A DNA stretch of 64,000 nucleotides, from positions 1 through 64,000 of the forward strand of contig NZ_LR732488.1 of assembly GCF_902506425.1 (NCBI RefSeq), written 5' to 3'. Of the stretch, positions 12,531 through 36,424 are shown one piece after another; the first letter of the stretch is position 1, and each line of letters begins with the position of its first letter. The notes beneath the pieces are model-generated. The model saw nothing but the letters and a program-made list of their open reading frames with translations. It had not been told where the DNA came from and ran no database searches. The position numbers and the translations under genes are program-made. This stretch comes from Novosphingobium sp. 9U (GTDB lineage: Bacteria; Pseudomonadota; Alphaproteobacteria; Sphingomonadales; Sphingomonadaceae).

Positions 12531-12648
12531 AAAGCGTTGGCTGGCGATGATCTGCATGTCCAAGAGACCAATCGCCGCGGATCAGCTGCGGTTCGCACAT
12601 CCAGTGACAGCAAGTGATTGGCTCAGTGGAAGTAAGGGTGAACGGCGC

Positions 12649-12879: not shown

Positions 12880-12899
12880 CCAAGTACAAGGACACCCTT

Positions 12900-12930
12900 G
12901 AAGAGCATACCACCACGGAGTATACTCTTC
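12900..12930. promoter_or_regulatory. Inverted repeat in divergent promoter region (putative operator)
   Basis: GAAGAGcATAC (12900-12910) and GTATaCTCTTC (12920-12930) pair over 10 of 11 bases around a 9-base loop. The site lies 21 bases upstream of the Xre start and 70 bases upstream of the sigma-factor start. It is a candidate operator for the Xre protein. The position is observed; the binding is inference. Confidence 0.45.
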
Positions 12931-13000
12931 ATGTTCCGCGGACCGAAAGTCGCTCCGTCGATTTTCAGCAGACGAGCCTTCCTGATGGCATGCACTTTCT

Positions 13001-13519
13001 ATGTCTCGTGAGAGTAGTGCGCCTGATGGCGCGTCATCCGCGTCGGCGCTCAGGTCGTGGCACGATCGAGATGCTAGATGGCTTTGCGAGATCCTGCAGC
13101 GCCGTTTGCGAGTTGATCGCGCTCAGGCGGACGATATCGCGCAGGAAACTTGGGTCAGGGTTCTTAGGGCGACGCAGGCCGGCGTCGAGCACCCTCGTGC
13201 GTTTCTTCTGAAGATCGCGATCAACCTTTTCCGCGATGCACGGCGGCGAGACAATCTGCAAGGGCGCAAGCTCAAGTTGTGGTCGAGCCCGGAAAGACCT
13301 GCCTTCCGGCCCACGAACCTCGAGGAACAAGAGGTTGATACACTCCTAGAGTAGATCATCTCGAGCATGCCTGAGCCCCTACGCGACGTCTTCGTCCTCA
13401 GCCGGTTCCAGCGTATGACCAACCGTGATATCGCCTTGCATTTGGGGGTCTCGATCAAGACCGTCGAAGCGCGCATGAGCAAGGCATTGGAGCATTGCCT
13501 CACCAAGCTCCGGGACTAG
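13001..13519 (+). pseudogene. FecI-like ECF sigma factor interrupted by an amber codon
   Basis: The first 117 codons encode region 2 of an ECF sigma factor (RLRVDRAQADDIAQETWVRVLR, then HPRAFLLKIAINLFRDARRRD). A TAG at 13352-13354 follows LLE. In the same frame the sequence continues with a full region 4 (SMPEPLRDVFVLSRFQRMTNRDIALHLGVSIKTVEARMSKALEH) to TAG at 13517. Without read-through the -35-binding region 4 is lost. The neighbours (FecR, TonB-dependent receptor, isopeptidase) form the usual cell-surface-signalling operon for lasso-peptide uptake, so loss of the sigma factor should alter its control. A sequencing error or amber suppression are alternatives. Confidence 0.8.
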
Positions 13520-13522
13520 GCT

Positions 13523-14488
13523 ATGGATGACGAGGACCAGGCCAATAAGGACCATCAGGCGGAAGCCACCGAGTGGTTCGCGCGCCTGAAGACCACGCCT
13601 CTTGCCAAAACGACGCTGGAAGGCTTCTTCGAGTGGCAGCGCGACCCCGCTCATGCTGAAGCTTTTGCACAAGTCGAGCGGCTATGGGGCAGGGCAGGAG
13701 ACCTGCGTTCGCGGACCACCATGCAGCGGTTCACTCAAGAGGCGCTTGCGCGTCCTCAAAGTATGCACTCGCGTCGTCCGTCGTTACGAATGGCCACTCT
13801 CGTATGTAGTTTATCGTTGGCCGTGGCAGTCGGAGGTGCGCTCCTGGTTCTACGTTCGCGGTCTGCCGATTACATGACCGGCATCGGCGAGCAGCGAGCC
13901 GTTGCGCTGACCGATGGTTCGCACGTGCGTCTCGCGACAGACACTCGGCTCGATGTGAAGATGAAGGACGCCGCGCGCCACGTCGACTTGGAGGGCGGCG
14001 AAGCACTCTTCGAAGTCGCGCATGATACTATGCGGCCCTTTGTCGTCGATACTGGTGACATTCAAGTGGTCGCCACCGGCACCCGCTTTGATGTCCGGCA
14101 CGTCGGCTCGCGAATCACCGTCACACTGCTTTCTGGAGGGGTCGATATCCGCAAGGGTGAAACACTGGTTGCGCAGCTCCGCCCTGGCCAGTCCTGGCAA
14201 TCGGATCGCCCCGCCGCGCAAGCCGTGACTGAGGCAAATGCGGGCGCAGTGCTCGCTTGGACACAAGGACGGCTAGTATTCGACAAGATCGCGCTCAAGG
14301 AGGCAGTCAACGAGGTCAACCGCTACTCGGAACGCAAGATCGTCCTTGTGGCTCCGAAAGACGAGGGCGAACTGATCAGCGGTTCGTTCAAGGCAGGTGA
14401 TACTGCGGCCTTCGCAGATGCGGCCGCCGCGATGCTAGACCTTACGGCGCAGCGCCAAGCGGACGGGTCGATTACGCTGGTACCGTAA
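13523..14488 (+). CDS. FecR-family anti-sigma factor/signal transducer
   Basis: 321 residues. The N-terminal cytoplasmic DUF4880-like part (EATEWFARLKT… AFAQVERLWGRA) should bind the sigma factor. One membrane helix follows near residues 92-112 (MATLVCSLSLAVAVGGALLVL), then a periplasmic FecR domain (GEQRAVALTDGSHVRLATDTRL, then GEALFEVAHD.MRPFVVDTGDIQVVATGTRFDVR) and a C-terminal STN-like segment (ALKEAVNEVNRYSERKIVL). It would carry the signal from the ligand-loaded outer-membrane receptor to the sigma factor. It starts 3 bases after the sigma gene, so it is co-transcribed. It is intact although its partner sigma factor is not. Confidence 0.9.
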   Translation: MDDEDQANKDHQAEATEWFARLKTTPLAKTTLEGFFEWQRDPAHAEAFAQVERLWGRAGDLRSRTTMQRFTQEALARPQSMHSRRPSLRMATLVCSLSLAVAVGGALLVLRSRSADYMTGIGEQRAVALTDGSHVRLATDTRLDVKMKDAARHVDLEGGEALFEVAHDTMRPFVVDTGDIQVVATGTRFDVRHVGSRITVTLLSGGVDIRKGETLVAQLRPGQSWQSDRPAAQAVTEANAGAVLAWTQGRLVFDKIALKEAVNEVNRYSERKIVLVAPKDEGELISGSFKAGDTAAFADAAAAMLDLTAQRQADGSITLVP

Positions 14489-14635
14489 CTTGTGAAGCGT
14501 TTCGCGAAATTTTCGTCACTAATCGGTCACTGTAGATAGGGTTACCCCTGCTCTGAAACGTCTCTTTCACAGCGCCTTCATCCGAGAAGCGCCTGCCGTC
14601 TCTGCAGCCAGAGGCGATGAAGGGGGGACACCGAA

Positions 14636-17629
14636 GTGAAATGCCATGTTCGTGGTGATTATCTGTTGAGGCGGATGTTCGGAGCTACGCTTTCAGCAGC
14701 CGCCTTGACGATGCCTGCCGTAGTCCAGGCGGCGGAGGCGCAGTATGGTTTCGATATCGCTGCAGGGCCGCTGTCCACCGCGCTGGTGCGCTATGCCGAG
14801 CAAGCTCAAGTCCAACTGCTGTACGCGCCGCAACTCGCAGACGGGCGCCGCTCACGAGCGCTTCGCGGCCGCTTCAGTGCGCGCGAAGGGCTCGAACGGC
14901 TACTGGCTGGTACCGGCATCACCATCCAGCAGGTCTCACCGCAAGTCTTCGTCCTGACTGCAGCCAAGCCGCTTCGTCCCACTCCCTCGATGTCGAGTGT
15001 TGCTGTTCCCGCCCCTTCTGAAGAAAACGAGGGAGGCGAGATCGTCGTCACCGGCACGCACATCCACGGAGCAGCGCCGGCTTCGCCGACCCAGATCGTC
15101 ACTCGCGCGCAGATTGAGCGCAACGGCTACTCGTCGGTCGCGCAAGCCTTGCAAGCTTTGCCCGGCAACTTCAACGGCATGGCCAACGAACAAAGCGCGC
15201 TTTCGTTCGCTGATCGCTCCGGCAACAATCTCACGCTTGCCTCCGGGGTCAACTTACGAGGGCTCGGGCCGAATGCCACGCTGGTGCTCGTCAACGGCCG
15301 CCGCATCGCCGGGTCGGGACTCGTTGGCGACTTCGCAGACATTTCGAGCATTCCCTTGAGCGCGCTCGAGCGAGTCGAGGTGGTCACAGACGGCGCATCC
15401 GCGCTCTATGGCTCGGATGCTGTCGCAGGGGTCGTCAACATCCTCCTTAAGCACGATTTCGACGGCTTCGAAACTCGCGCGCGCGGCGGCATGGTCACAC
15501 AAGGGCACGCCCGCGAGTGGCAGCTCTCGCAGACAGCGGGCGCACGCTGGGGCGGCGGGTCGCTGCTGATCGCCTACGAATTTCAGAAGCGAGTGGGTCT
15601 TCGCAGTGCCGACCGCAAGTACGCACGTTCTGCAGACCTACGCGCCTTTGGCGGCACCGATCATCGCTACCCCTACAGCGTGCCTGGCAATGTCTTTGGC
15701 TTTGATGAGAGCGGAGCACTAGGCCCAGTCTACGCAATCCCATCAAGGCCGGCCGGCACGGTGCTGAATGCGAACGACTTTCTCGCGGGGCAAGCTAACC
15801 TCGAGAACTTCAGAATTGGGTCCGATCTGACACCCGATCAACGGCGGCACAGTGTCTATGCAAGGGCGATGCAGACAATCGCGGACGGCATTGAACTCTC
15901 GATCGAAGGTCGCTTCGCCGATCGCCGGTATGACAGCCGCACCTCCGGCTACGCGACGATCCTGTTCATCACCGATGCCAACCCCTGGTTCGTGTCGCCC
16001 ACGGGAGCGTCGAGCGATCTTATCGGCTATGCTTTCACGCGTGAGCTTGGCGCTACGCGCACGGCTGGCTCTGCCAAAACGCTGGGGCTGACAGGATCGC
16101 TGGATGCGCAGCTCGGGTCGGGCTGGCGGCTGTCCAGTTACGCAGGGTTCGCGCGTCAGCGCGACATGAGCCGCACCGACCGCATCGCCAACGAGTACGT
16201 CCTTGCTGAAGCGTTAGGAGCCATCCCGGACGATCCATTGACAGCCTATGCGCCGGCAAGGGACGGATATTTCAACCCTTATGGGAATGGTTCGGCGAAC
16301 AGTGCCGCAGTGCTTGGGGCGATCGCGGGCTACACCGATGCCAGGACACGCTCAAGGGTCCTCACTGTGGACGCGCTGGCCGATGGACCTTTGTTCACGC
16401 TGCCAGGCGGCATGCTGAAGTTGGCTATCGGCGCTGATTACCGCCGCGAAAATTTTTTCAGCCGGTCAAGTGACTTCATCTTCACGCCGCAGCCCAATAT
16501 CGGTGCGCCCTCACGTTATACGCGTGACATTTGGGCGGGCTTTGCCGAGGTGAATGTTCCGCTGGTCGGCGCCGAAAATGCCCGAGCTGGTATCGAGCAA
16601 CTCGAGTTAACAGGTGCGGCGCGGATCGAACGCTATGATGACTTTGGGCATACGACCAACCCCAAGTTCTCCTTGCGCTGGGTGCCCCTCGATGGGCTTG
16701 CGCTACGGGGAACTTGGGGAACTTCATTCCGTGCGCCCAACCTTCGTGAGCTTGGTCAACGCGAGACAATCAGTCCCTCGTTGTTGCCCGACGCGGTGGG
16801 CAATTCGCTCGTCGTACTGCAACGCAGCGGTGGCAATTCCACGCTCAAGCCTGAGCGTGCGCGAAGCTGGACGCTCGACTTCGATTTGAAGCCCGCAGTC
16901 TTCACTGGCTTGCGTGCCAGTGTCACCGGCTTTCGCACGATCTTCGATCGCCGCATCGACTTGCCAGCGTTGCGCAACTTCTCGCGGGCGCTTGTTGACC
17001 CCAATCTGAGTGCCTTCGTCCGCCGGGTCGCACCAGGTACGAACGCCGCCGATCGCGCTCTTGTCGAGGCGCTCCTTGCACAAGCAGGCGGGATCGGCGG
17101 CTACCCTCTCGAGAGTGTCACCGCCATTGTCGACACGCGCTACGTCAACACAGGGAGCGTCGATGTTTCCGGCCTCGATGTTGATGTGGGCTATGCCTTC
17201 CAGCACGGGCGAGACCAGTTCGATATCGGCATAAACGCTACATATCTTGGGCGCTGGCGCGAGCGACTGACGCCGACAGCAGCGGCGATCGACCAGCGCA
17301 ATCGCGCGGAAAAGCCGGTGGACTTGAGGGGCCGGGCGACGCTGGGTTGGAGCAGGGGAGCTTTCGATCTGCTCGTTGGGCTCAACTACGTGGACCGATA
17401 CCGCGATCTTCTGGGCGGGCGGATCAAGGCCTGGTCGACGCTTGACACGCGCATCGGCTATGCGCCGAAGGCTGGCACTTTGGCGGGACTGACGCTCGCA
17501 GTGGTTGCGCAGAACCTGCTTGATCGGTCACCGCCGTTCTACGACTCCAGTTCCGCGGCAGGATACGACGGCGCCAACGCGGATGCGACGGGCCGGTTTG
17601 TCGCCTTCGAAGTCAGCAAGCGCTGGTGA
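14636..17629 (+). CDS. TonB-dependent outer-membrane receptor with N-terminal signalling domain
   Basis: 997 residues from GTG at 14636 (AAGGGGGG about 8 bases upstream). After a signal peptide (ATLSAAALTMPAVVQA) comes an STN signalling domain (FDIAAGPLSTALVRYAEQAQVQLLY… ALRGRFSAREGLERLLAGTGI), then a TonB-box-like segment near EIVVTGTHI, a plug domain (RVEVVTDGASALYGSDAVAGVVNILLK) and a 22-strand barrel ending in an aromatic-terminated strand (GRFVAFEVSKRW). Receptors with STN plus FecR form transenvelope signalling systems. Placed directly before a lasso isopeptidase, its likely ligand is the lasso peptide or something carried by it; that substrate is inference. A spacer of 147 bases after fecR could hold its own promoter. 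Confidence 0.92.
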   Translation: MKCHVRGDYLLRRMFGATLSAAALTMPAVVQAAEAQYGFDIAAGPLSTALVRYAEQAQVQLLYAPQLADGRRSRALRGRFSAREGLERLLAGTGITIQQVSPQVFVLTAAKPLRPTPSMSSVAVPAPSEENEGGEIVVTGTHIHGAAPASPTQIVTRAQIERNGYSSVAQALQALPGNFNGMANEQSALSFADRSGNNLTLASGVNLRGLGPNATLVLVNGRRIAGSGLVGDFADISSIPLSALERVEVVTDGASALYGSDAVAGVVNILLKHDFDGFETRARGGMVTQGHAREWQLSQTAGARWGGGSLLIAYEFQKRVGLRSADRKYARSADLRAFGGTDHRYPYSVPGNVFGFDESGALGPVYAIPSRPAGTVLNANDFLAGQANLENFRIGSDLTPDQRRHSVYARAMQTIADGIELSIEGRFADRRYDSRTSGYATILFITDANPWFVSPTGASSDLIGYAFTRELGATRTAGSAKTLGLTGSLDAQLGSGWRLSSYAGFARQRDMSRTDRIANEYVLAEALGAIPDDPLTAYAPARDGYFNPYGNGSANSAAVLGAIAGYTDARTRSRVLTVDALADGPLFTLPGGMLKLAIGADYRRENFFSRSSDFIFTPQPNIGAPSRYTRDIWAGFAEVNVPLVGAENARAGIEQLELTGAARIERYDDFGHTTNPKFSLRWVPLDGLALRGTWGTSFRAPNLRELGQRETISPSLLPDAVGNSLVVLQRSGGNSTLKPERARSWTLDFDLKPAVFTGLRASVTGFRTIFDRRIDLPALRNFSRALVDPNLSAFVRRVAPGTNAADRALVEALLAQAGGIGGYPLESVTAIVDTRYVNTGSVDVSGLDVDVGYAFQHGRDQFDIGINATYLGRWRERLTPTAAAIDQRNRAEKPVDLRGRATLGWSRGAFDLLVGLNYVDRYRDLLGGRIKAWSTLDTRIGYAPKAGTLAGLTLAVVAQNLLDRSPPFYDSSSAAGYDGANADATGRFVAFEVSKRW

Positions 17630-17639
17630 CGGTGATCCG

Positions 17640-19961
17640 ATGCGTTCTGCAGTTCTCGTGCTCGCATGGCTCGCAAGCCTGTTCCACGCCGCGCAGGCGT
17701 CGGCTCGGTCCTACACGGTCGACGATCTGCTTCGCCTTGAAGCCATCGGCAAGGTTCTCGTCGACCCTGCCGGGCGATGGCTGGCGTTCGAAAAAAGAGA
17801 GGGAATGTTTTCGCTAAAAGAGCATGGGCGGATCGCCAAAGCGGACGTCTTGCGCTCGACACCCTATGTGGTCGATCTTGCGAGCCCCGGCAGGGCACAG
17901 CCGCTTCTGACGGACGGGAGACCAAGCGGCACCATCCTTCTGGGCTTCTCCCCTGGGGGACGTCACCTTGCGATCGCCAGGCTCGAAGGCGATCGCTTCC
18001 GGCTCGGAACCGTCAACTTGGCAAGCCGGGAGGTGCGCTGGTGGCCCTTCGCACCGAGCTATGATCCCTTCCATAGCATTGCTGTCTGGGTAGACGACGT
18101 CAGGCTCGTGGTGATCGCTCAGGAAGACGACCGCGCCGCGGGATGGCTCGTTGCCGACACCATGCCGCGCAAGAGCGCGGCCCAGCGCGGCGCCGATACG
18201 GCTGCTGGGCGACTGGGGGTCACTTCTGCCGGCAGCGGCCGCTTTCTTGATCTGCAAAAACACAGCGAGCGGCGCTTGCTGCTCCTCGATCTTAACCGAC
18301 ATGTCGCGACAGCTTCTATTATTGGGCCCTGGGTCTCACTGGCTCCGGCGCCGTCTGGTTCGTGGCTTGCCGCGACCCGGCAGGCAGGTCCGCTCCAGCC
18401 CGCAGCGGCGGACCCGGTGCACGAGGATACGCCTTACATGAGCGAAGAGTTGCTTCTGCTCAGGCCTGACGCGCATAGCATCTGGTCGCCTTGCGACACT
18501 TGCACGCTCGCTGGCGTGCCCTCTTGGAACCGTCGAGGGGACACGGTTGTCGCGCTCATCGTCGCTCACGGGCGCCAGCAGATCCTGTTGGCCCAGCCCG
18601 CCAAAAGGTTCGTTGCGCTCCTGCCTGCGCCGCGCGGCCGGGCGAGCGCTGCAGGTTCGATCGGATGTCCGCTGCGCTGGCGAGGGCAGGAGCTTGTCGT
18701 GCCGGGGACTGACTCAGCGCGAGCGAAGGGGCCTGCTGAAATCGTGGGACGCCTGTCTGTACGCGTGAGCGGTTCATGTGCGAACGGCCAGTGGCCGGTA
18801 GACGGGGCCGATTGGATTCGGGTGAGCAGCACGACGCCCCTGCGCTTCATAGACGCGCAGGGGCACCGACAAGCGCTCACATCCGGCATGGACAACGCTT
18901 CGGATGCCCTTGGCGAATTCGTCGCCCAAACCGAAGCACTTCCTCTAGGGGGCAAGACTGGTGCCACGCTACTACGCTTGCGCAAAGCGCGCGGGGCCGA
19001 GCAGCTCGTATTGCTGCGCAAACGAGCCATGACACCGCTCATAAATCTCAACACCCACATGAAAGATGTGGAACCCGCAACCTGGCGTGCTCTCGTTCAA
19101 AACGGGCGTGATGGGAAGCAAGTCAGCTGGCTGGTCCTGCCACCAGGCACCAGGCGTGGCGCCCCGTTGCCGCTCGTCGTTTTTCCCTATCCTGGGCAGA
19201 TATACAGTGAGCAGCCACCAGCAGACCAGCAGCTCGGCGGGGAGCGCTACTACACCAGTGCGCAGTTGCTTGCAGCCTCAGGCTTTGCTGTCCTGCTTCC
19301 AAGCCTGCCCATGCCACGTGTGCTTCCAGACCAAGGCTATCCCTTCGCCCGGGCAATTGAGAAGGTACTGGAGGAAGCGCTCGGCACTGGCTGCTGTGAT
19401 CGGGCGCGCGTGGGCCTGTGGGGGCACAGTTACGGAGCTTACGCCGCGGCCATGGCAGCAAGTCAAAGTTCTCGTTTTCATGCGATCGTTGCCTCCTCGG
19501 GCATCTACGATCTAGCAGGGACCGTCGGCACCTTCGGACCGGGCACTCGCGCATCGCCGGAGCGGATGTTGCCCGTGGCGGCAAACTATGCCTGGGCCGA
19601 GGAGGGGCAGGGCCGGATGGGGGGCGCGCCTTGGAGTGTGCCCTTGCGTTATGTCGCCAACAGTCCGGTCTATTTGGCCGACAAAATTCAAGCACCAATG
19701 CTGATCACGGCAGCGGATCAAGATGTATCGCCCCTTGGTCAGGCCGAGCAGCTTTTCTCCGCGCTCTTCCGCCAAGGCAAGCCCGCACAGCTAGTCACGT
19801 ACTGGGGGGAAGGGCACGTTGTCTCGAGCCCTGCCAACTTGCGCGATCTTTACGCGCGCGTGACGGCCTTCTTCCGGTCTGAACTGAACTCGAAAACTGA
19901 GGGGCAGAAAGCCGCGGCATCTGAAGGTCAGCTAGAAACACCAAGGCTTCAGGACCGATGA
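17640..19961 (+). CDS. Lasso-peptide isopeptidase-like S9 (prolyl oligopeptidase) protease
   Basis: 773 residues from ATG 17640, 10 bases after the receptor stop. An N-terminal hydrophobic leader (SAVLVLAWLASLFHAAQASA) looks like a signal peptide. A beta-propeller-like region (about residues 25-500) precedes an alpha/beta-hydrolase domain. The catalytic residues visible are Ser597 in GHSYG, Asp693 in AADQDVSP and His726 in GEGHVV. Lasso isopeptidases (AtxE type) are S9 enzymes that cut the isopeptide bond of their cognate lasso peptide, and they are encoded with FecI/FecR and a TonB-dependent receptor in alphaproteobacteria, exactly as here. A generic prolyl oligopeptidase-like peptidase is the alternative. 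The assignment rests on context as much as on sequence. Confidence 0.8.
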   Translation: MRSAVLVLAWLASLFHAAQASARSYTVDDLLRLEAIGKVLVDPAGRWLAFEKREGMFSLKEHGRIAKADVLRSTPYVVDLASPGRAQPLLTDGRPSGTILLGFSPGGRHLAIARLEGDRFRLGTVNLASREVRWWPFAPSYDPFHSIAVWVDDVRLVVIAQEDDRAAGWLVADTMPRKSAAQRGADTAAGRLGVTSAGSGRFLDLQKHSERRLLLLDLNRHVATASIIGPWVSLAPAPSGSWLAATRQAGPLQPAAADPVHEDTPYMSEELLLLRPDAHSIWSPCDTCTLAGVPSWNRRGDTVVALIVAHGRQQILLAQPAKRFVALLPAPRGRASAAGSIGCPLRWRGQELVVPGTDSARAKGPAEIVGRLSVRVSGSCANGQWPVDGADWIRVSSTTPLRFIDAQGHRQALTSGMDNASDALGEFVAQTEALPLGGKTGATLLRLRKARGAEQLVLLRKRAMTPLINLNTHMKDVEPATWRALVQNGRDGKQVSWLVLPPGTRRGAPLPLVVFPYPGQIYSEQPPADQQLGGERYYTSAQLLAASGFAVLLPSLPMPRVLPDQGYPFARAIEKVLEEALGTGCCDRARVGLWGHSYGAYAAAMAASQSSRFHAIVASSGIYDLAGTVGTFGPGTRASPERMLPVAANYAWAEEGQGRMGGAPWSVPLRYVANSPVYLADKIQAPMLITAADQDVSPLGQAEQLFSALFRQGKPAQLVTYWGEGHVVSSPANLRDLYARVTAFFRSELNSKTEGQKAAASEGQLETPRLQDR

Positions 19962-20746
19962 ACAGGTTTTGTGCATGATGTCAGCGGACGGGATCATTGC
20001 GCCTTAGCGCCGGGTGCGCCGAGCCTTGTCCCTGCCAGGCCTTGTTCGGCGTAGATCTTCGCCTTCAACAGGCAGCTCGCCTCGCAAGCCGCTCGGCTGG
20101 CACAGCGTCGCGACGCCTAGATCGGAACACCCTCGTTGCGAACGAGTGCTGCCGCTAGTTGAGGTCGGTCGGCAAGGTAGGTTTGACAATTGAAAGTAGT
20201 CTGATCCGCAGACCTGCCTCGTGTTCCTGGTCTGCCTCTCCTTCTCCGCCATATTGTTCTTGCAAACCATGGTCTGCATAGTGTCAACACAGGCCAGCCG
20301 CACTATCCTCCGCCATGCGGTTGTGCGGTCAGGGCTGGTGTCTGGTCCCCCCCGACGCCAGTCCGCCCTGACAAACAGGTCATCATCGTGAGGGAAGCGG
20401 GCGGTACCTAGCTGCCTTTACCACCTAAGCGTGGTAGTATGAGCGCTGACGAGTTTGAATGGCGAGCTCCTTGAACATGCAAGGTCAGAGCGACTGGAAG
20501 GTATTAGAACCGTGAGACTGACCCCCTCGGATCTACCGGCCATCGATCGTTGGACGTTTGGAAGCTGCTGGATCGCTGATTATGATGCTCGCTATGCGTT
20601 ACTGACGCTTCGCCGATCTGTCGGACCGCTCGCGCGAGCTCGCATTCCTGCCCCTGACCTCGTCCGGTCGATCTGCTTGTAGAGCTTAAAAGCAGCGCGA
20701 TGTCGTCGTCTAAGTTATGACACAAAATGGTTTTAGAAGAGAGGCT
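19962..20746. other. Long spacer, no firm gene
   Basis: One plus-strand frame (20455-20682, TTG start, 75 aa) is possible but has no ribosome site or motif. A short inverted repeat TACCAC-6-GTGGTA near 20420-20437 is the only structure noted. Otherwise empty. Confidence 0.35.
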
Positions 20747-21007
20747 ATGCTTCAGAAACTGCTGCGATTGGTGACTTTCAGGAAAGAAGCCGGCCCTGTG
20801 GCCGTGCAAGGGTATGCGCCTATATCGCAGCAAGAGTACCGCGCCGCTTTCCGGAGGGTCGACGAGGCTCATCTCAAGGGCCGTCCCCGAGATGTGCTAC
20901 TTCGCGATGCGTTGGTGATCAAAGGATATTCCCGGCCGGCTGAGGGATATGACAGCTTTGGCTGGCCAGAAGGCGATCCACGTAGCCCGAACGCGATAAT
21001 TCGGTAG
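20747..21007 (+). CDS. Hypothetical protein (86 aa)
   Basis: The ATG at 20747 is preferred to one at 20717 because GAGAGG stands just before it. The protein is basic at the N-terminus (LQKLLRLVTFRKEA) and then mixed polar, with a Tyr/Arg-rich middle and a Gly/Pro-rich end (EGYDSFGWPEGDPRSP). There is no membrane helix and no known domain. Codon use is normal for the region. I do not recognise it. Confidence 0.4.
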   Translation: MLQKLLRLVTFRKEAGPVAVQGYAPISQQEYRAAFRRVDEAHLKGRPRDVLLRDALVIKGYSRPAEGYDSFGWPEGDPRSPNAIIR

Positions 21008-21424
21008 ATGCACGGCGCCGCACCCTCTCTGTTCTGTCTTCGTCCGCACGGCCCGTTGTTGTAGGTTCTGGGTCGGCCCGATCGGGGCTGCGCTTGATCT
21101 CAGTCGATCAGCGGTAACAACGACCGCGGTCGCGGTAGGTCAGCCCTGGAAGGCTCCGCTGATGGTTCAGGAGCGTGGCATGGATCAGCATTGCACCGTG
21201 GGGAGAGCGACTGCGGTGAAATACGGAGCGATCAATCAGCAGTGTCGTCGTCGCCTGAAAGGGCGGTCTTAAGTCTCAGGGGTTCTCCAAGCGCATCTGA
21301 TAGGTAGGCTGCTTAAAGCTCTGCGAGGCTTGCGCGACAGGTTGCCTGCCCGCTGGCCCCGGCCGATATCAAGAGGATTGAGCATGAGCTCGCCTTTTTC
21401 CCGCCCTTAATCTTTGTGATGCGC
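21008..21424. other. Intergenic stretch, nothing supportable
   Basis: No convincing gene, RNA or repeat was seen. The short palindromic run ACGACCGCGGTCG near 21120 is too small to interpret. Confidence 0.35.
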
Positions 21425-21613
21425 CTACCAGATCAGCTGAAGTCCGCTCGACCCGACGAGGAACGCGATGACGCCACTGACAAGCGCAAGGCGTTCGGAA
21501 AACGCCCCCACTGTAAAACCGAGCACGTAGGCTGCCATGTCGAAGCCGGCGAGCATCAGACCCGCCCAAAACCCCGCCCTGACTGCGCGTTTGCGCAAGT
21601 CGCACCTCGACAT
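21425..21613 (-). CDS. Possible small two-helix membrane protein (62 aa)
   Basis: From ATG 21613 the frame gives a basic start (SRCDLRKRAVRAG) and two hydrophobic segments (FWAGLMLAGFDMAAYVLGFTVG and LALVSGVIAFLVGSSGLQLIW). The charge pattern (positive before the first helix) puts the N-terminus in the cytoplasm. No good ribosome site is visible and the family is unknown. The hydrophobic pattern is too regular to dismiss. Confidence 0.35.
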   Translation of the reverse strand: MSRCDLRKRAVRAGFWAGLMLAGFDMAAYVLGFTVGAFSERLALVSGVIAFLVGSSGLQLIW

Positions 21614-21823
21614 GGGCGGCCGGGCCAGATCGCTGCTGTTGCTGGGCGAGGCCCGATCAAGCATCGGGATGGGCAAACGATCAGGCCTCGCCACTCGGGA
21701 CCGGGTGAGCTTATGCTACCAGGTCTTGGTTAACGTGGGGTTGATGATCTGAAAGGTTTAGCGGGTATCCTTTGGCCACGAGTGCTATGCTGCGTTGCAG
21801 AAGCAAAGCTTGAAGGAGGTACC

Positions 21824-22051
21824 TTGAGCAGCATCAGCATCGCGGCACACTGGGGGCGAAAGGCGGCCCAGGCTGGGTTACGCATTTCGGACAATCCCTA
21901 TCAAGGCGGGATTGGCAGAGCTGCATGGCGCCGAGGGTTCCGGCAGATCAGAGCGGCGGTCGTTGAACGCCTTGATCGTGGCAGTTCATGGAAGCAACCG
22001 TTGTTGCCCTTCGAGAGCCAAAGTCGTCACGGGGTGGACCGTTGCATTTGA
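21824..22051 (+). CDS. Small RMF/CrpP-like protein (75 aa)
   Basis: The TTG at 21824 is chosen because a near-perfect AGGAGGT lies 3 bases before it. The core GRKAAQAGLRISDNPYQGGIGRAAWRRGF has the pattern of ribosome-modulation-factor/CrpP-like small proteins (…A…G…NPY……AW..GF). These are short basic proteins; RMF binds 100S ribosomes, and many alphaproteobacterial members are of unknown function. The C-terminal 30 residues are not conserved in the family as I know it. The motif and ribosome site are observed; ribosome binding is inference. Confidence 0.55.
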   Translation: MSSISIAAHWGRKAAQAGLRISDNPYQGGIGRAAWRRGFRQIRAAVVERLDRGSSWKQPLLPFESQSRHGVDRCI

Positions 22052-22343
22052 CACTCTTGATGGTGTCCCCGAACCGCCAAGCGGTCACAACCCGCACCAT
22101 CTAGGCGGCAGAAAGACGAGGGCGGCAATCCTTTTTTCAGCATTTTGAGACGTTTGAAATGAACACCTTCCTCTGAAGTTGAACTTCTCCTCATGATGAT
22201 CACTTCCGTCAGGAGGGACGCGTTCTCTGATCCTTCCTCGCTAACCGCATGAAATTGAGCACGTGGCGGCTTACTAGCAGCAGCCCGAACTTGCTTCAGG
22301 TAGGCAGGTCCGACGCGACCTTGGCCTCGCCATCAGCGGAGCA

Positions 22344-23453
22344 TTAAAGCGTTGCGGTCAGCCGCAGCCGATGTCTCGCACGCTTGATGCCGTATAGCTG
22401 CGTATCAGCAAGCTGGAGCAAGTGGTGCAGGTTAGCTGCCCTATCCGCACTCACGATTGTCCCCAAGCTGGCCGTGATGAGAATACTTGATTGATCGATC
22501 GCGAATGGCTGCTCCATGGCGTCGCGAACTCGCCAGGATAATTCAAACGCTTCATCTTCGTTCTTCAAGCCGAATTGAACGATGGCAAATTCGTCCCCGC
22601 CCAGACGAGCAACCATGTCGCTCATCCGGATAGCTTTACGAAGGCGGTCGGCGACCGCGATGAGCAACTGGTCGCCGGCAGCATGACCGTACTTGTCGTT
22701 TACTGGCTTGAAGCCATCCAAGTCGACATAGTGGACCGCCACCACTGTACCGGTGACGGACAATGCCAATCGCGCATTGAAGAACTCGTCCAGCGCCAAG
22801 CGGTTCGGCAACGAGGTAAGCCCATCTCTGCGGGCCATGCTGACTGACGAAATGCGAGCGGCGATCTCTTTTCTCGCCTCATCGTAGCGAACGATCATGG
22901 AGCGACCGGCGCCGCAGATAAGAGCCGTCGCGACGACTGCCAGGGCAGAATACACCGGCTCTTGCTTGGTTGCCGAGATGCAAATAATAGGCCCGATCGC
23001 GAGCAAAATGCTCCCGAGCGCCAGGACAGGTCGCGAGCCGCAATTCGCCACGACCCCCGCGCAGTAACCGAATGCAACGCAGATCGTCAGCATGTGCAGT
23101 TCTGTTTGAGCTCCCCGGAAGATCAAGAAGCTAAACGCGCCGAGGGCGGCGGCAAAGCCGAGATGAGGGGCGGCAAACTGGGCTTCGAAGCGGCGCGCCT
23201 CATCTCGCGTGATAACTCGCCCGGAAGCGAGCTTGCGCAACCACAAACAAGCAGAGATGCGCCAGACGTTCAGGACACAGCCGGCTATACCGACAGCAAC
23301 GAAGACCGGATTGCCTACCTTTTGATAGGCGATGAATAGGACGATGATGAAGATGCCAGCCGTGACCGTGGAGGTAGCGACGCTGGAGAAGAGGGAAAGG
23401 ACCTGAGCAACGTAAACGCGGTCGCTGACAGGCTCCGTTACGCTGAAAGGCAT
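22344..23453 (-). CDS. Membrane-anchored diguanylate cyclase (GGDEF)
   Basis: 369 residues from ATG 23453 (AGGGA 8 bases upstream). The first about 190 residues hold five to six hydrophobic helices (for example TSTVTAGIFIIVLFIAYQ and ILLAIGPIICISA). A GGDEF domain follows: RDGLTSLPNRLALDEF, HYVDLDGFKPVNDKYGHAAGD and the active-site GGDEF in ARLGGDEFAIVQF. The inhibitory I-site RxxD stands five residues before it (RMSD), so it should synthesise c-di-GMP from two GTP and be feedback-inhibited. There is no EAL domain. It sits between the isopeptidase and the lasso B/C genes, with no operon link to either (gap of 611 bases to the cyclase gene). Confidence 0.92.
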   Translation of the reverse strand: MPFSVTEPVSDRVYVAQVLSLFSSVATSTVTAGIFIIVLFIAYQKVGNPVFVAVGIAGCVLNVWRISACLWLRKLASGRVITRDEARRFEAQFAAPHLGFAAALGAFSFLIFRGAQTELHMLTICVAFGYCAGVVANCGSRPVLALGSILLAIGPIICISATKQEPVYSALAVVATALICGAGRSMIVRYDEARKEIAARISSVSMARRDGLTSLPNRLALDEFFNARLALSVTGTVVAVHYVDLDGFKPVNDKYGHAAGDQLLIAVADRLRKAIRMSDMVARLGGDEFAIVQFGLKNEDEAFELSWRVRDAMEQPFAIDQSSILITASLGTIVSADRAANLHHLLQLADTQLYGIKRARHRLRLTATL

Positions 23454-24064
23454 AGCGTTGGTCCCTGATCGATCCAATCTACCTCTTCCTACGTCCCAAA
23501 CCTTACTAACCTCCTTAGCTCTGTATGCCGTTCGCATCGAACCGGCGCCCGGAAGATCTCCTGCTTGGCACGCAGCCTTTCTTGCGCTTCGACGCCCGAG
23601 GATTGCGGCAGCCGTTCTCGGCACGGCGGTTCGGCAGTGAAGCGGTTAGCACAACGATGGTGGGCTGCGACGCACCCGAGTTTCCGAGATCCTCATCACC
23701 CCCATCTGAAAATCCGTGGCCGCCCCAAAGGTGTTGGGGCGCGCCTCCTGCCGGAACGACTGGCAGGGAACAGGAGTTCGGATCTCGTCTGCGATCGTCT
23801 GGAACGCCGGCACGCGTGGAAGCCCCCCCCCTGGCCATCGGGGCGCATCGTCGAACGCTGGGAAACAAGCCTCGCACCTTGATCGTGTCCGGCTACTCAC
23901 AAAGAGCTGATCACAGGTATGCGGCCGCTTGTTCGTCTCTCCCTTGGATAAGCGGTCGCCAATCAAGCTGGGCAGGGTCGAGGCAGCTCGCGGCGCAGCC
24001 GCTCCAGAGTCTGCCGCCGGTTGCGGGCTGTGCAGCTGAACAGATCTCGCCTCAAAGGAATGGC
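23454..24064. other. Spacer between diguanylate cyclase and lasso cyclase genes
   Basis: All frames look like shadows. A faint similarity to an IS5-type transposase start (around 23740-23830, plus strand) could not be supported. The promoter of the diguanylate cyclase gene should lie in 23454-23520. No terminator hairpin of note was found for the lasso operon. Confidence 0.35.
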
Positions 24065-25840
24065 TTATGGCGCCAGATGTCGTGAGCACCTGCCAAGGCG
24101 GTCGATCTGCATACGCCAGTGTTCAAACCAGTCCTCGATCTCTAGCAATGTAAGCAGTTCCGCGTAGCAATCGAACTGCAGAAGGTAGTTCTCATCTGAT
24201 GCGAGCTCGAGCGCTGGGCGGTTAAGCAGACCCGCCCGGCATAGACGACCTTCAAGCAACCGCTGTCTCAACAGCGGGACGCTTCTGGCAAGGACCTGGC
24301 CGAAATAGCCTGTGAGCGATCCCTTGCCACGGCGGGACAGAACACCTTGCGGAAGCCTATTCACAAAAGCGGCTCGCGCCAGCGCGCGATCTCGTCGTCC
24401 GTCAGTGAGCACCAGCAGCGATTGGGCCAGCGCAAATTCCACAAGAGGCTGGGAGAGGAGGGGATGGATAACGTCCAGGACCTGCGAGCAATGACTAGGA
24501 CCAAACGCATTGCGCTCTGCGGCAATCCCGTGAATCTGCATCTGCTTGGCTGGTGTTAGACCGTTAAGGTCGCCAGCCCAGCGCAGAGATCGCGGGCGTG
24601 GCTGCGGGCTCGCCAGGAACCTGCTTGCTCGAGCTGGCTCGAGCGCCGACAAGTTCCGCGTCAGCGCCGCACATGCGACTGCCCAAACACTGGTCCGGCA
24701 CCAGCGCGCCATTGGTTCTAGTCTCTTGAGGAACCCTGCCCGGCCATCGGGCGATGGCTCCGCCGCGACCAGCACCGAAGGGTGTTGGAAGAAGACGGCG
24801 TCGCCTCCGCGCCCTGTGAACAGCTGGCGCGCGCCGATGGTTTGCGCATGAGAGGCAAGTACTGCATCGTGGAAGAGCGATGTGCTGCCGATCCCGGGTC
24901 GCCATCCTCTGACGGTCGATGAAAGGCGCGATGCGTCGAGTGCCTCTGGGCCGAGCACAATTTCCGTATTCGATATAGCGAGGTGCACCGCTATCTCTCG
25001 GCTAAAGCGGCGCTCGTCTCCTGGCAGATCATGGCTGTAGAAGGTAAAGGCCTCAGCTAGCGAACCAGCCTTTACAAGGCTCGCAGCAATTATGGCGGAG
25101 TCCAATCCGCCAGAAAGTTCGACGACTGCTCGATCGTTGCCCGAGCGCCAAGCCATGACGCAACTGTCCACCAGATGGCTCAGCATCTCGGGTGCTGCAG
25201 CCGGGCTTTCCGATCTCGAACAGAAGGTGCGTGGCGCCCAAAGTCTTTGCTGGCTGCTCTCAGGACCCGCAAGACGCGTGAGCAGGCCTGCTTCGAGAGC
25301 CTTGACGCCCCGCAACGGCTCTGCATCGGCTACCGCCGACGGGAACGCCACGATCTGGCGAACTTCCTCTAGATCGATGTCAAAGTCATCGGGCGGGTAC
25401 GACGGTAACCACTTCCCCGGCTCATTCGTGATGAAGAGGATCCCTGAGTGCTGCCATCTGACGCATTCGCGCATGCCAATCGGATCGCGAAACAGCGTGA
25501 CATCAGATCGGGCGTCGCAGTCGTTCCAGATGGCAAGATAGCTGCCCCAACGAGTGGCGGTGAGTTCGCGGCAATAGCTTGTGAAGCTCGACCGATCAGG
25601 TGGCGCTGCTATCGCGCATTTCTCGTCGCGAGCCGCTCCGGCGAATATATCGCCGATAACGAAGCACTTAGCCGACATTCTTCGAACGTCCTGCGAGGAG
25701 CCGGCGACCAGTAAGCCGGGCTCGTGCACGCAGAGCTCAAAGTTTGAGGACAGCGCCTTGATTTCACAGGAAATTGCCTGTGTCGTCCGTGCGGCACATC
25801 GATCGGCTTGTACCCAGCTTAACAGTAGAAAAGGTCTCAT
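24065..25840 (-). CDS. Lasso-peptide macrolactam cyclase (asparagine-synthase-like C protein)
   Basis: 591 residues. The N-terminal about 200 residues resemble the glutaminase-like half of asparagine synthetase but lack the Cys2 nucleophile. The C-terminal half carries the ATP-pyrophosphatase signature VVELSGGLDSAIIAASLV and downstream motifs (LFTGRGGDAVFF, then DVIHPLLSQPLVEFALA). C proteins adenylate the side-chain carboxylate of the core Glu/Asp and close the ring onto the N-terminal amine. The length is normal for lasso cyclases. The start overlaps the end of the B gene by 4 bases (ATGA), so the two are translationally coupled. Confidence 0.9.
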   Translation of the reverse strand: MRPFLLLSWVQADRCAARTTQAISCEIKALSSNFELCVHEPGLLVAGSSQDVRRMSAKCFVIGDIFAGAARDEKCAIAAPPDRSSFTSYCRELTATRWGSYLAIWNDCDARSDVTLFRDPIGMRECVRWQHSGILFITNEPGKWLPSYPPDDFDIDLEEVRQIVAFPSAVADAEPLRGVKALEAGLLTRLAGPESSQQRLWAPRTFCSRSESPAAAPEMLSHLVDSCVMAWRSGNDRAVVELSGGLDSAIIAASLVKAGSLAEAFTFYSHDLPGDERRFSREIAVHLAISNTEIVLGPEALDASRLSSTVRGWRPGIGSTSLFHDAVLASHAQTIGARQLFTGRGGDAVFFQHPSVLVAAEPSPDGRAGFLKRLEPMARWCRTSVWAVACAALTRNLSALEPARASRFLASPQPRPRSLRWAGDLNGLTPAKQMQIHGIAAERNAFGPSHCSQVLDVIHPLLSQPLVEFALAQSLLVLTDGRRDRALARAAFVNRLPQGVLSRRGKGSLTGYFGQVLARSVPLLRQRLLEGRLCRAGLLNRPALELASDENYLLQFDCYAELLTLLEIEDWFEHWRMQIDRLGRCSRHLAP

Positions 25841-26385
25841 GTGGCGGACTGTGATCGCAGAATGACGGTGTACTTTTCAACCAGGTGCGCGCGTTCACCG
25901 ATCAACAGATTTTCCTGAGCGAGCCAGCAATGAGCCTCGAACGGGAACAGCCGGACGCCTATGACCCAGTCCGCAGAGTGACCACTAAGTTTCAGAAATT
26001 GCAGCAGGGCGTAGGTTTTTGAGAGGCAGAGAAGCCGAACAGGAAGATAGAGGCACATGCGCTCAAACCGTGCGGCCAGCATCGGCGCAGTAATAGCCAC
26101 GGGAACGAAATGACTGGGCTGCGTTGCATGCCAGAGCAGGGTTCGCAGCGGGCGGTAAGGAAGGCGGACAAGCGTGATCGCGAGTGCCAGAACAAAGCAC
26201 GCGCAATCTCGGACTCCGATCCGTGCTGGTTGCACACCGTCGCACTCTCGCCACGCAGGAGCTTGATGTTCGGACGAGAGCGTTCTCTCAATCGATTCAG
26301 GATCATAGCGGCACAAGTAAGTATCGTGCTCAAGGTCGAGGAGGACGGTGCCACCGGGGCAGTGGGCCAGATAAGTGAAAAGCAT
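25837..26385 (-). CDS. Lasso-peptide leader protease (B protein, transglutaminase-like)
   Basis: 182 residues from ATG 26385. A longer TTG start at 26451, overlapping the precursor stop, is possible but would put the hairpin 26410-26440 inside the gene. The N-terminal part (GGTVLLDLEHDTYLCRYDPES) resembles the leader-binding RRE domain. The C-terminal part is the cysteine protease: the nucleophile Cys in PVRLLCLSKTYALLQFL and the His in LFPFEAHCWLA are visible; the third residue of the triad may be the Glu in LLIGE. It cuts the leader after Thr-x. The gene ends overlapping the cyclase start (order A-B-C). There is no ABC-transporter D gene. Confidence 0.85.
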   Translation of the reverse strand: MLFTYLAHCPGGTVLLDLEHDTYLCRYDPESIERTLSSEHQAPAWRECDGVQPARIGVRDCACFVLALAITLVRLPYRPLRTLLWHATQPSHFVPVAITAPMLAARFERMCLYLPVRLLCLSKTYALLQFLKLSGHSADWVIGVRLFPFEAHCWLAQENLLIGERAHLVEKYTVILRSQSAT

Positions 26386-26409
26386 CACAGATAGCGCCAG
26401 CGCGGGATG

Positions 26410-26440
26410 GGTGGTGCGACCGATATTCGGTCGCACCACC
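26410..26440 (-). promoter_or_regulatory. Perfect 14-bp hairpin between lasso precursor and B gene
   Basis: GGTGGTGCGACCGA (26410-26423) pairs with TCGGTCGCACCACC (26427-26440) around a three-base loop. It begins 8 bases after the precursor stop codon. There is no U tract. Lasso operons are known to place a hairpin after gene A so that the precursor mRNA is made in excess over B and C. The structure is observed; attenuation or mRNA protection is inference. Confidence 0.75.
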
Positions 26441-26447
26441 CTGGTGC

Positions 26448-26597
26448 TCAACCGCCGATCGTATAAAGTCGATCGGTGATCATTTCGGCGCGGTTCCCGC
26501 TGAAGGCAGCGCGCGTCAGCTTGCGAGCTTTGCCCATCGTCCGCAACGCAGGCTGCTGAACAGCCGGTGCACCTGCGAGTTGTACTTTGTGTGTCAT
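26448..26597 (-). CDS. Lasso-peptide precursor (A), predicted new class II lasso peptide
   Basis: A 49-codon gene (ATG 26597, TGA 26448-26450) with GAGGAA about 8 bases before the start. Leader of 29 residues: it holds a hydrophobic-x-x-P-x-L element (VQQPAL) for leader recognition, then MGKARKLTR with the obligatory Thr at position -2. Predicted core, 20 residues: AAFSGNRAEMITDRLYTIGG. Glu9 is the ring acceptor, giving an Ala1-Glu9 nine-residue macrolactam. Leu15/Tyr16 or Arg14 could be steric plugs in the threaded tail. An eight-residue ring from cleavage one residue later (A2 to E9) is the alternative. No Cys, so class II. It lies directly upstream of B and C on the same strand. Confidence 0.88.
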   Translation of the reverse strand: MTHKVQLAGAPAVQQPALRTMGKARKLTRAAFSGNRAEMITDRLYTIGG

Positions 26598-26704
26598 AGC
26601 AATCTTCCTCGACTAACCGCCGCTTGTCGACGGCTTGCAGAGTAAAAGGTCCGACTCCGAAGATCGCGAAATCATATCGTCAGAATACCGCAGATATAGG
26701 CAGG

Positions 26705-27292
26705 TCAGACCTCAGGGTTGAACAGAAGGGCGAATTCCCCAGCCCGGGCCATGCAATTTTGATGAAACGCAAGGCTCACCAAGTGCGCTGAGGCAAGATC
26801 CTGCTTGGCCAGCGCCGCTGCGAGCATGGAACCCCTCGCGGGCATGTCGCCGATTGTGCGCGTCTCGAAACGTCGCACCATGCTCAGCCGGTCAGCGAGG
26901 TATCTGCGCAATCCGATAAGCGCCGCATCCTTGGTCTGGAGCGTGACGTCATCGAAAAGCCGCCACAGGTTACGGACGCGACGCCAGCTTGGGTGCGCTT
27001 GCGCTACAGAATTGACCGCCTGCTCGACACAAGATTGATGCGCTGAGTATAGCCCGGTGATTGTTCGCGCGTTGAGCGGTGCAAGGTAGAAGCCCTCGCG
27101 ATGATGGTCGACGACGATGTCTCGACCGGCAAGCTGACGCAGCGCCTCGCGCACTGGCGTCGTGCTCACGTGCAAAGCTTGTGAAAGCTCGACAATGCCG
27201 ATCCGATGCGAGGGCCGGTGCTGACCCTGGACGAGCCGCTCCAGCACGCCCGCATAGACTTCCTCGAATGTTAATCGTGATTTGTGGTGCAT
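26705..27292 (-). CDS. GntR-family transcriptional regulator
   Basis: 195 residues. The N-terminal winged helix is typical of GntR (FEEVYAGVLERLVQGQHRPSHRIGIVELSQALHVSTTPVREALRQLAGRDIV). The C-terminal about 110 residues are helical and resemble an FCD/VanR-type effector domain, but the metal-binding His residues of FCD are not evident. It sits 107 bases upstream of the lasso precursor on the same strand and is the natural candidate to control it, either from the same transcript or by binding the spacer 26598-26704. The effector is unknown. Confidence 0.85.
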   Translation of the reverse strand: MHHKSRLTFEEVYAGVLERLVQGQHRPSHRIGIVELSQALHVSTTPVREALRQLAGRDIVVDHHREGFYLAPLNARTITGLYSAHQSCVEQAVNSVAQAHPSWRRVRNLWRLFDDVTLQTKDAALIGLRRYLADRLSMVRRFETRTIGDMPARGSMLAAALAKQDLASAHLVSLAFHQNCMARAGEFALLFNPEV

Positions 27293-27561
27293 AGCTAAGC
27301 CGCCTCCTGATCCAATCGTGTGGGCAGGAGCAGCAGCGACTCAAGCGAATTGCGCGATCATCGTGGCGTCGGCCGGGTAACGGCCAGCAAGTTGTTGCAT
27401 AACGCGCGTTTGCTGATGATACTCCGCAAGCGCGCTGCGGGGATCCCGCACGAAAAATTGCGCGGGCGGAGAGGACGACGCTTTGGTCGTGGTGCGTAAG
27501 CCACGATGAAGGCGGATCGCAGGTGAGCCGAGGGCCATCGTGGCCGCTCATGGAGATCAGT
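27293..27561. promoter_or_regulatory. Divergent promoter region between GntR and Xre-like genes
   Basis: This 269-base spacer separates two regulators transcribed away from each other and must contain both promoters. No perfect operator-like repeat was found by eye. Confidence 0.35.
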
Positions 27562-28080
27562 ATGTCGTTCTCGTTTCTCGACCTGTCCGAAGAACGAGAC
27601 ATTTTGTGCAAGGTGTTCCGAGCGATAAAGAAGAAGCGCAATCTTACATCGCGTGAGATCGCTGACAGCATGGGATTGGCGCTTCGTACATACGAACAAT
27701 TCGAGAGTGGCTCTGGAAGGATCCTCTTTGGCCAAATTCAAAAGTTTTCGGAAGCAACGGATAGTGACCCATTCGCTATCCTGCTTGCTGTCATGTACCG
27801 GACGCCTGAGTTTGCCGTCCATTGTGCTGACAACAAGTTTCCACTCATCATCACTATGTCGATAGAGCGGTTTGCCGAGGACATGGGCTCCGATGTCTCG
27901 CTACTTGAGCCGCTTAATGTCATCACCGGATGTCAGAGATACCTTGCAGAGCTGAAGAAGAAGATCGCTGACGATGAGCTTACCGTTTCCAAGTGGCTAA
28001 ACGGGAAGCGTGGGTACATCGACCTTGGCCGTCTCAGCCTGCGCGGCTTTCGACGCACAAAGCGGCGAGAGGCACCATGA
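27562..28080 (+). CDS. Xre-like helix-turn-helix regulator (172 aa)
   Basis: The ATG at 27562 is chosen since GGAG lies 6 bases before it; ATGs at 27523 and 27550 are alternatives. The N-terminal half is a divergent HTH_3 domain: LCKVFRAIKKKRNLTSREIADSMGLALRTYEQFESGSG. A second helical half (ERFAEDMGSDVSLLEPLNVITGC… AELKKKIADD) ends with a basic tail (FRRTKRREAP) that may aid DNA binding. It is divergent from the GntR gene. A role in lasso control is possible but unsupported. Confidence 0.6.
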   Translation: MSFSFLDLSEERDILCKVFRAIKKKRNLTSREIADSMGLALRTYEQFESGSGRILFGQIQKFSEATDSDPFAILLAVMYRTPEFAVHCADNKFPLIITMSIERFAEDMGSDVSLLEPLNVITGCQRYLAELKKKIADDELTVSKWLNGKRGYIDLGRLSLRGFRRTKRREAP

Positions 28081-28294
28081 CTTGCACTGGTAGCGTCACT
28101 GGCGCACATCCTACTTCTGTGGCTTTCGTCTCGTTGCAGAGTCTTTAGCTCTGGCGCTGTAGTGCTGCATCCTCTTCATTGGTTGCCATTGTCGGCATGG
28201 CGGATCACAGATGTCGCTTAGACCAAACGACGAGCACTGATCAGCGTCCCGCCCTTCGGCCTCGCGCGCGGTTTAGAACGCGGTCGGGACTGAA

Positions 28295-28933
28295 CTAAGC
28301 ATGCTGACCCAGCGCTCGTCGCACCTCAGGCATTATCGTGTAGACGGCCTCGCGCTGTGCTCCTCGGTTCTCGTGATCGATGCGATAGCCCTGGTAGTGC
28401 CGGCGCAAGAGCCCGGCGCGAACCAAGTCCGAAACTGCCCGGCTGACATTCGTGCGCCCTGAATGCCGCAAGCGGTCTCTCACTGCTTGAGCGACGATGG
28501 TCTCGGTGCAATCCGGATCCGTGGGATTGTCGACGTTGTGAGCCACTTCTGCGCGTACCTTCCTCACGATCTTGAGGCGCCGTGGATCGCGTTGTGCGAC
28601 GGGGATCAAAGCGTCGCTCAGCCAGTCTCTGATGCCCACAAGACCTTTGCCTTCGCGCACATAGGGTCCAGCACGGCCGGACGCGTCAGAAACCCGGGCT
28701 ATCAAGTTCAGCACCATGAATGTGTAACGCGGCCTCGCAGATACATCCGCAAGGCGCTGCAGGATCTCAGGCAAATCGACCGCGTCAGGCTGCTCAACCA
28801 CATCAGGCTGCAAAGGTCGGTCGTTTAGGATCTCGAGGGAAGGCGAAGATACCGCGTGGCTAGCCTTTCGACTGATCTGCGCATTGCCGCCACGCTTTGG
28901 TTGATGGGGGCTGAAAAGATCGAGCTGGTACAT
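28295..28933 (-). CDS. Hypothetical winged-helix protein (212 aa)
   Basis: From ATG 28933 (MYQLDLFSPHQPKRGG). An in-frame ATG at 28951 is possible; neither has a strong ribosome site. The N-terminal 50 residues are polar. The middle and end look like a winged-helix DNA-binding fold (VAQAVRDRLRHSGRTNVSRAVSDLVRAGLLRRHYQGYRIDH, then a wing-like strand pair and AVYTIMPEVRRAL). A perfect 11-bp inverted repeat lies 70 bases upstream of the start. A plasmid-replication or partition-associated regulator is conceivable, but I do not recognise the family. Confidence 0.6.
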   Translation of the reverse strand: MYQLDLFSPHQPKRGGNAQISRKASHAVSSPSLEILNDRPLQPDVVEQPDAVDLPEILQRLADVSARPRYTFMVLNLIARVSDASGRAGPYVREGKGLVGIRDWLSDALIPVAQRDPRRLKIVRKVRAEVAHNVDNPTDPDCTETIVAQAVRDRLRHSGRTNVSRAVSDLVRAGLLRRHYQGYRIDHENRGAQREAVYTIMPEVRRALGQHA

Positions 28934-29002
28934 GGAACATATCAAGCACATTACGGAGGCAGTGTGAATCCCTGCCGTCGAGCTTGGGTTCTTTAGCCAC
29001 CC

Positions 29003-29037
29003 GTGACACTTTACCGGCGCTCGCGATAAAGTGTCAC
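29003..29037. repeat. Perfect 11-bp inverted repeat upstream of winged-helix gene
   Basis: GTGACACTTTA (29003-29013) and TAAAGTGTCAC (29027-29037) are exact reverse complements with a 13-base spacer. The half-site spacing of about 24 bases centre to centre (two helical turns) suits a dimeric DNA-binding protein. It may be an operator of the gene at 28295-28933 or a plasmid control site. Confidence 0.55.
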
Positions 29038-29039
29038 AC

Positions 29040-34785: not shown

Positions 34786-34800
34786 CGGGAGTTTCGAAAG

Positions 34801-36419: not shown

Positions 36420-36424
36420 GCGAC

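Follow-up and report, generated by a model that had tools for sequence, protein, structure and literature searches.

A putative isopeptidase-type lasso peptide cluster with a shortened leader peptidase in Novosphingobium sp. 9U

Does a 49-codon open reading frame (ORF) of Novosphingobium sp. 9U encode a lasso peptide precursor and, if so, how would the genes around it make and use the peptide? The stretch of DNA analyzed here (the window) comprises bases 1-64000 of contig C20 (250,788 bases), in a genome of 4.64 Mb and 75 contigs.

Precursor gene A and its subfamily

The ORF, gene A, lies on the minus strand of the window at 26448..26597, a strand left unstated in the first-pass annotation, and runs from an ATG start to a stop at 26450-26448. 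A ribosome-binding-like sequence, GAGGAAG (26604..26610, minus), can be read before the ATG, and the 49-codon gene with a ribosome site described in that annotation is thus present. Codons 1-29 (26597-26511) make up the leader and codons 30-49 (26510-26451) the predicted core, AAFSGNRAEMITDRLYTIGG, whose frame and limits we confirmed and whose computed neutral monoisotopic mass, after loss of one water, is 2124.04 ([M+H]+ 2125.05), against a neutral mass of 2142.05 for the linear core. Gene A was also rightly placed directly before B and C: the TTG start of B overlaps the TGA of A, and the ATG start of C overlaps the TGA of B. The isopeptidase, the receptor and sigma genes, and the shortened B protein had gone unmentioned.

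Because 155 ORFs of at least 40 amino acids overlap 16 kb here, a 49-codon ORF alone carries no weight; the DNA is rich in G+C and has many short ORFs, and the frame might be a chance one, with another ORF as the true precursor. However, in the stretches searched it was the only ORF upstream of B that fitted the leader-core pattern, 20 database proteins belong to its conserved subfamily, and precursor genes of that subfamily lie immediately before B in loci L056, L057, L058, and L060 as well; we give the chance frame a practically negligible probability. Over the last 29 codons of the five precursor genes, pN was lower than pS in 9 of 10 pairs and equal to it in 1 (window versus L057, pN 0.25 and pS 0.49), and by this pattern of substitution gene A is under constraint. 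We conclude from the sequence that the 49-codon ORF very likely belongs to an isopeptidase-type lasso cluster, a class that is already known.

A precursor profile built from these five genes (the window, L056, L057, L058, and L060) retrieved 20 related proteins (P0001-P0020; best E 1.5e-25), some of which are the profile members themselves or near copies of them. They come from Sphingobium, Sphingomonas, and others without a source name; where a name was present (8 of 20), it was each time "hypothetical protein," and the subfamily appears to be unrecognized in its source records. A single-sequence search with the precursor against 5.8 billion proteins gave no candidate. The exact core had no match in protein, plasmid, or literature searches, the scope of which did not extend to lasso-mining collections and most subscription journals, and within that scope the earlier view of a core with no known match is upheld; the closest core, that of P0006, is identical to the window at 16 of 20 positions. 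Sequence words from the relatives likewise had no match in the literature searched. Two matches of the precursor to plasmids by tblastn (E 3 and 4) and a single match in an NCBIfam scan of the 21 precursors (E 0.17) were rejected as chance matches.

Alignment of the window with the 20 relatives (21 rows) showed G-8, A-6, R-5, T-2, R-1, A1, E9, and G19 to be invariant. The first-pass reading of a lasso precursor, with a ring closed between Ala1 and Glu9 and with Thr at -2, therefore agrees with all 21 rows, and B2-peptidase and cyclase-type genes lie directly downstream. A short leader with Thr at -2 and a core with Asp or Glu at positions 7-9 are the marks of a class II lasso precursor, and the sequence shows both. 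Like the window, P0001-P0020 (from Sphingobium and relatives) have a gap-free 20-residue core with Ala1, Glu9, Arg or Lys at position 14, and Gly19, and leaders that end in LG-x-AR-xx-TR, and L056-L058 share an identical gene order with it. Mean pairwise identity among the 21 precursors was 0.90 for the motif LGKARKLTR, 0.59 for the ring, 0.54 for the tail, and 0.27 for the remaining leader. Ala1 is nothing unusual for the isopeptidase class; among 97 further leader-core pairs selected by pattern, 38 start with Ala, 44 with Gly, 13 with Ser, and 2 with Leu. Strong conservation of the core suggests, as far as sequence can, that a single partner is shared, for which the receptor is the simplest choice.

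The alignment bears on several finer points. Position 14 is Arg in 18 precursors and Lys in 3, and position 16 is Tyr in 17, Phe in 1, and Gln in 3, which makes Arg14 (Arg or Lys in 21/21) and Tyr16 (Tyr or Phe in 18/21) the better candidates among the plugs that had been proposed; Leu15, which had also been named, is a poor candidate because seven different residues occur at position 15. The SGN turn assigned to the ring survives in part, with Gly5 kept in 18 of 21 sequences but Ser4 in 10 and Asn6 in 6. A P-x-L element is present in the window leader, as had been noted, but is not a feature of the family, in which only 4 of 21 leaders have Leu at -12. Conserved hydrophobic positions of the leader are instead -11 (Ile, Val, or Leu in 20 of 21) and -9, and the window, with Arg, is the sole exception at -11. 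The peptide is a new member of the isopeptidase class and brings to it a conserved, apparently unrecognized precursor subfamily.

The leader peptidase and the cyclase

Gene B (25837..26451, minus) encodes a leader peptidase with a B2 domain (PF13471, 59.7 bits; NF033537 lasso_biosyn_B2, 66.1 bits, cut-off 33) and an N-terminal RRE-like region of reduced length. It is the one PF13471 match in the whole genome, and its Cys142 and His174 are invariant in a 13-row alignment. As a side observation, among the 18 B sequences listed, acidic residue 186, after the stretch that follows AHCW, is Glu in 13, which include the window and its nearer relatives, and Asp in the other 5.

The RRE is regarded as the leader-binding module of most prokaryotic RiPP pathways and holds the precursor between alpha3 and beta3, according to the accessible text of PMC7470986. 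The N-terminal spacing that reports on this region is 125 in window B and at least 146 in 84 of 92 measured loci; short B proteins, which comprise window B, those of 7 of the 91 other measured loci, and 12 database proteins, have spacings of 125-139, versus 146-189 in the others. The shortening falls where the leader-binding RRE helix normally sits. The AlphaFold model of window B contains three strands and a four-residue helix and no alpha3; this model and that of a full-length control agree with the shortening, and the Foldseek probability to 5v1v was 0.06 for window B versus 0.97 for the control. Lasso B1/RRE proteins of solved structure (TbiB1, 5v1v and 5v1u; 6jx3) are the known counterparts; no RRE was among the 50 matches listed for window B, a result that does not prove absence. 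A profile of B searched against the PDB returned one row, which we rejected as a chance match.

B of this strain seems to hold its leader without the usual RRE helix. We tentatively propose, as a possibility we ourselves find somewhat doubtful, that in the window and some relatives B has lost alpha3, which with beta3 forms the RRE cleft, and that recognition proceeds via a strand edge, the peptidase domain, or the cyclase, leaving a minimal strand-only element. A hydrophobic residue at -12 of the leader occurs in 6 of 21 members of the window's precursor family versus 91 of 97 precursors elsewhere; Leu at -12 is kept by the window and three other loci with short B proteins. On the tree of cyclases the short-B state requires three changes, and reduction of the RRE may therefore have occurred more than once. 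The literature searched, open text with subscription journals outside its scope, gave no pointer to a shortened RRE in lasso B proteins. If the proposal is true, a lasso peptidase that works in the absence of alpha3 would reveal how small a part of the RRE module suffices, and such peptidases could escape RRE-based mining; in our opinion the shortened B protein matters more than the new peptide.

Gene C (24065..25840, minus) encodes an asparagine-synthetase-like lasso cyclase (PF00733, 76.9 bits, cut-off 21), an assignment that also draws on its homologues. None of the NCBIfam cyclase models scored above cut-off against C, and phmmer of C against the PDB gave no match. The protein keeps S243-G244-G245 and D247-S248, which are invariant in a 12-row alignment. 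C-like matches (E <=0.001) were found in 128 of 397 genomes of the window's family, the weak ones among which are probably ordinary asparagine synthetases, and the five top-ranking ones from outside the window share 37-40% identity. The best relatives in named records, from Sphingobium sp. CECT 9361, Sphingobium lactosutens DS20, and a metagenome-assembled genome (MAG), are 45-46% identical, and it is with these three that window C groups in a tree of 43 cyclases (support 100/100).

Gene neighborhood and proposed function

In the cluster, fecI, fecR, the TonB receptor gene, and the isopeptidase-like gene E follow one another and face C, B, A, and GntR; an XRE gene is linked to the set. We compared it with 16 loci from the window's family, in stretches that end before some genes, and with 80 loci from named records with 5-kb flanks. 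The 16 family loci contained B in 16, C in 16, the receptor in 16, E in 15, GntR in 15, FecR in 14, and fecI in 9; the 80 contained C in 80, B in 78, E in 74, the receptor in 70, GntR in 63, and FecR and fecI in 0, the last two being absent from these counts probably because the 5-kb flanks fall short. Fifteen of the 16 family loci have the receptor side turned toward the C end; the exception is L055, where E and the receptor are found on the opposite side, past the XRE gene. Upstream of A is a GntR-type regulator (26705..27292, minus; PF00392, 46 bits), a match to which also lies beside B in relatives, and its divergent neighbor is an XRE-type HTH regulator (27523..28080, plus; PF01381, 27.7 bits), which recurs with the cluster in 12/16 and 65/80 related loci.

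As far as the accessible text of a review of the class extends, every isopeptidase cluster known at the time had a GntR gene ahead of the precursor together with a TonB receptor and sigma/anti-sigma genes, and such clusters have no ABC exporter gene, with rubrinodin as the single exception (PMC9266682). In line with the latter, no ABC transporter was found among the ORFs scanned within 13001-28951, where those left unscanned are shorter than 150 amino acids. The same accessible text does not name an XRE gene for the class (PMC9266682). Rfam gave no match within 11000-30000, and promoter and terminator patterns gave none within 26400-27600.

Gene E (17640..19961, plus; start codon chosen among possible starts) encodes an isopeptidase-like S9 hydrolase (PF00326, 84 bits) with an N-terminal signal-like stretch and a GHSYG motif. 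Its best NCBIfam match is the Atxe2 family, NF033523, at 73.7 bits, under the cut-off of 400. Against the PDB, E matched AtxE2 (5txc; E 5.9e-10, 41.1 bits) and, slightly better, a plant glutamyl endopeptidase (E 3e-11), and other S9-type hydrolases matched as well. Before E lie genes for a TonB-dependent receptor with plug, barrel, and STN signaling domain (14636..17629, plus; PF00593, PF07715, and PF07660) and for a FecR-type anti-sigma regulator (13523..14488, plus; PF04773, 78.4 bits).

The fecI-type ECF sigma gene (13001..13519, plus; PF04542 on 13001-13354) carries a TAG codon in frame (13352-13354) that falls between regions 2 and 4 and interrupts the gene. If this stop is no assembly error, the sensing arm of this strain may be switched off. 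Between E and C are about 4.1 kb (19962..24064), which hold a GGDEF gene (22344-23624, minus); none of the 16 family relatives has a GGDEF gene there, and a GGDEF match of any kind occurs in 1 of the 80 second-set loci. Of 14 facing relatives with both genes, 13 have at most about 150 bases between the ends of E and C (1.3 kb in L043), and only the GGDEF part of the 4.1-kb stretch was matched among the ten plasmid matches listed. Given the fecI stop and this gap, regulation may be lost here. With the addition of an IS110-type transposase in two separate ORFs upstream of the cluster (11053-12224, plus), these features could mean that the cluster is decaying in this strain, its genes recognizable and its peptide no longer made or sensed. 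However, A, B, C, E, receptor, FecR, and GntR are all open frames, B and C keep the invariant residues given above, the precursor is under constraint, and the fecI stop might be a wrong base of a draft assembly; we regard decay as unlikely.

We consider it very likely that the locus is an isopeptidase-type lasso cluster in which A, B, and C make a threaded peptide with a nine-residue ring that is probably released, sensed, re-imported, and opened. The precursor, B, C, the E-like hydrolase, the receptor, the regulators, and the gene order can be read from the DNA; for ring chemistry, threading, sensing, import, and opening we reason from the class. Ribosomes would make the 49-residue precursor, and B would cut the leader off after Arg-1. 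C would then activate Glu9 and link it to the Ala1 amino group; the resulting nine-residue ring would be threaded by the 11-residue tail MITDRLYTIGG, which is probably held by Arg14 and Tyr16. After its probable release, the peptide would probably be recognized and taken back up by the TonB-dependent receptor of the cluster, from whose STN domain a signal would pass via FecR to the ECF sigma factor; E, as an isopeptidase, would open the ring in the periplasm after import. By analogy, sensing and import of the peptide are probable. We counted against this reading the score of E (73.7 versus 400 bits), its other S9 matches, the fecI stop, the 4.1-kb gap, and the Arg at -11.

RNA polymerase is inhibited by some lasso peptides, and bacteriocin genes often have conjugation genes as neighbors. 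The first conjugation gene recognized here by a family model is 5.4 kb from the XRE gene, and the peptide might thus be an antibacterial weapon of the microcin J25 type and not a self-sensed ligand. We judge this very unlikely, because no exporter or immunity gene was recognized in the cluster, because the STN receptor and FecR fit sensing, and because isopeptidase-class peptides other than astexin-1 are described as without antimicrobial activity in the accessible text of PMC9266682, which calls the biology of the class enigmatic. The peptide might instead be a carrier that binds a nutrient or hydrophobic cargo outside the cell and enters via the receptor, with ring opening by the isopeptidase freeing the cargo. 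The accessible parts of PMC9266682 and PMC11006600 put forward a siderophore-like hypothesis, and the latter reports that Sphingomonas BPH no longer grew on phenanthrene when its B gene carried a transposon. But no cargo is known, and the phenanthrene result comes from one transposon mutant, for which the authors call the mechanism unknown (PMC11006600); we think the carrier role worth keeping in view while holding it unlikely overall. A peptide sensed and re-imported by its producer remains our preferred reading.

Related lasso systems and the remainder of the window

Among known systems, caulonodins IV-VII of Caulobacter have a nine-residue ring, start with Ala1 or Ser1, and have a leader ending in G-x5-T-x; in ring size and leader end they resemble the window, but their core sequence differs. 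The core of L093, which we take to be caulonodin VI, an expressed peptide, is accompanied by a B protein with a full-length RRE region, unlike window B. In the window's own genus, the core of L054 is presumably subterisin; this cluster shares with the window the sequence of genes from receptor and E to C, B, and GntR, but the leader and core are of another type and C is 29% identical over the matched part. The astexin-2/-3 cluster likewise has an isopeptidase, a receptor, and regulators beside A, B, and C, as far as the accessible text of PMC9266682 goes, and window E matches its AtxE2 only remotely (41.1 bits to 5txc).

Elsewhere in the window, F-type conjugation genes (TraB/TrbI, DsbC, TraC, TraU, TraF, and TraG N-terminal) related to those of sphingomonad plasmids extend over 33457-50968 on the plus strand, and a lytic transglycosylase gene (29804-30643) may belong with them. 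Contig C20 might be part of a plasmid or of the chromosome; the sole RPA-type replication gene found sits on contig C31. An error-prone DNA polymerase gene (55449-58751, minus) has two further ORFs upstream, to 61190, of which 60420-61190 gave no Pfam match; the whole (55449-61190, minus) resembles an SOS mutagenesis cassette.

Searching for the pattern G-x5-T-x followed by [GAS]-x6-7-[DE], repeated in a row, identified multi-copy frames in 10 of the 80 second-set loci (8 from Brevundimonas and 2 from other Caulobacterales): L066, L071, L074, L076, L079, L107, L114, L128, and L131 have two leader-core copies in one frame, and L116 has three or more. A further row, in L087, was rejected as a chance match. 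From their sequence, the repeated frames look as if they were multi-core lasso precursors. We also note that genome G287 harbors at least two full clusters of this kind, L043 and L044, with different cores.
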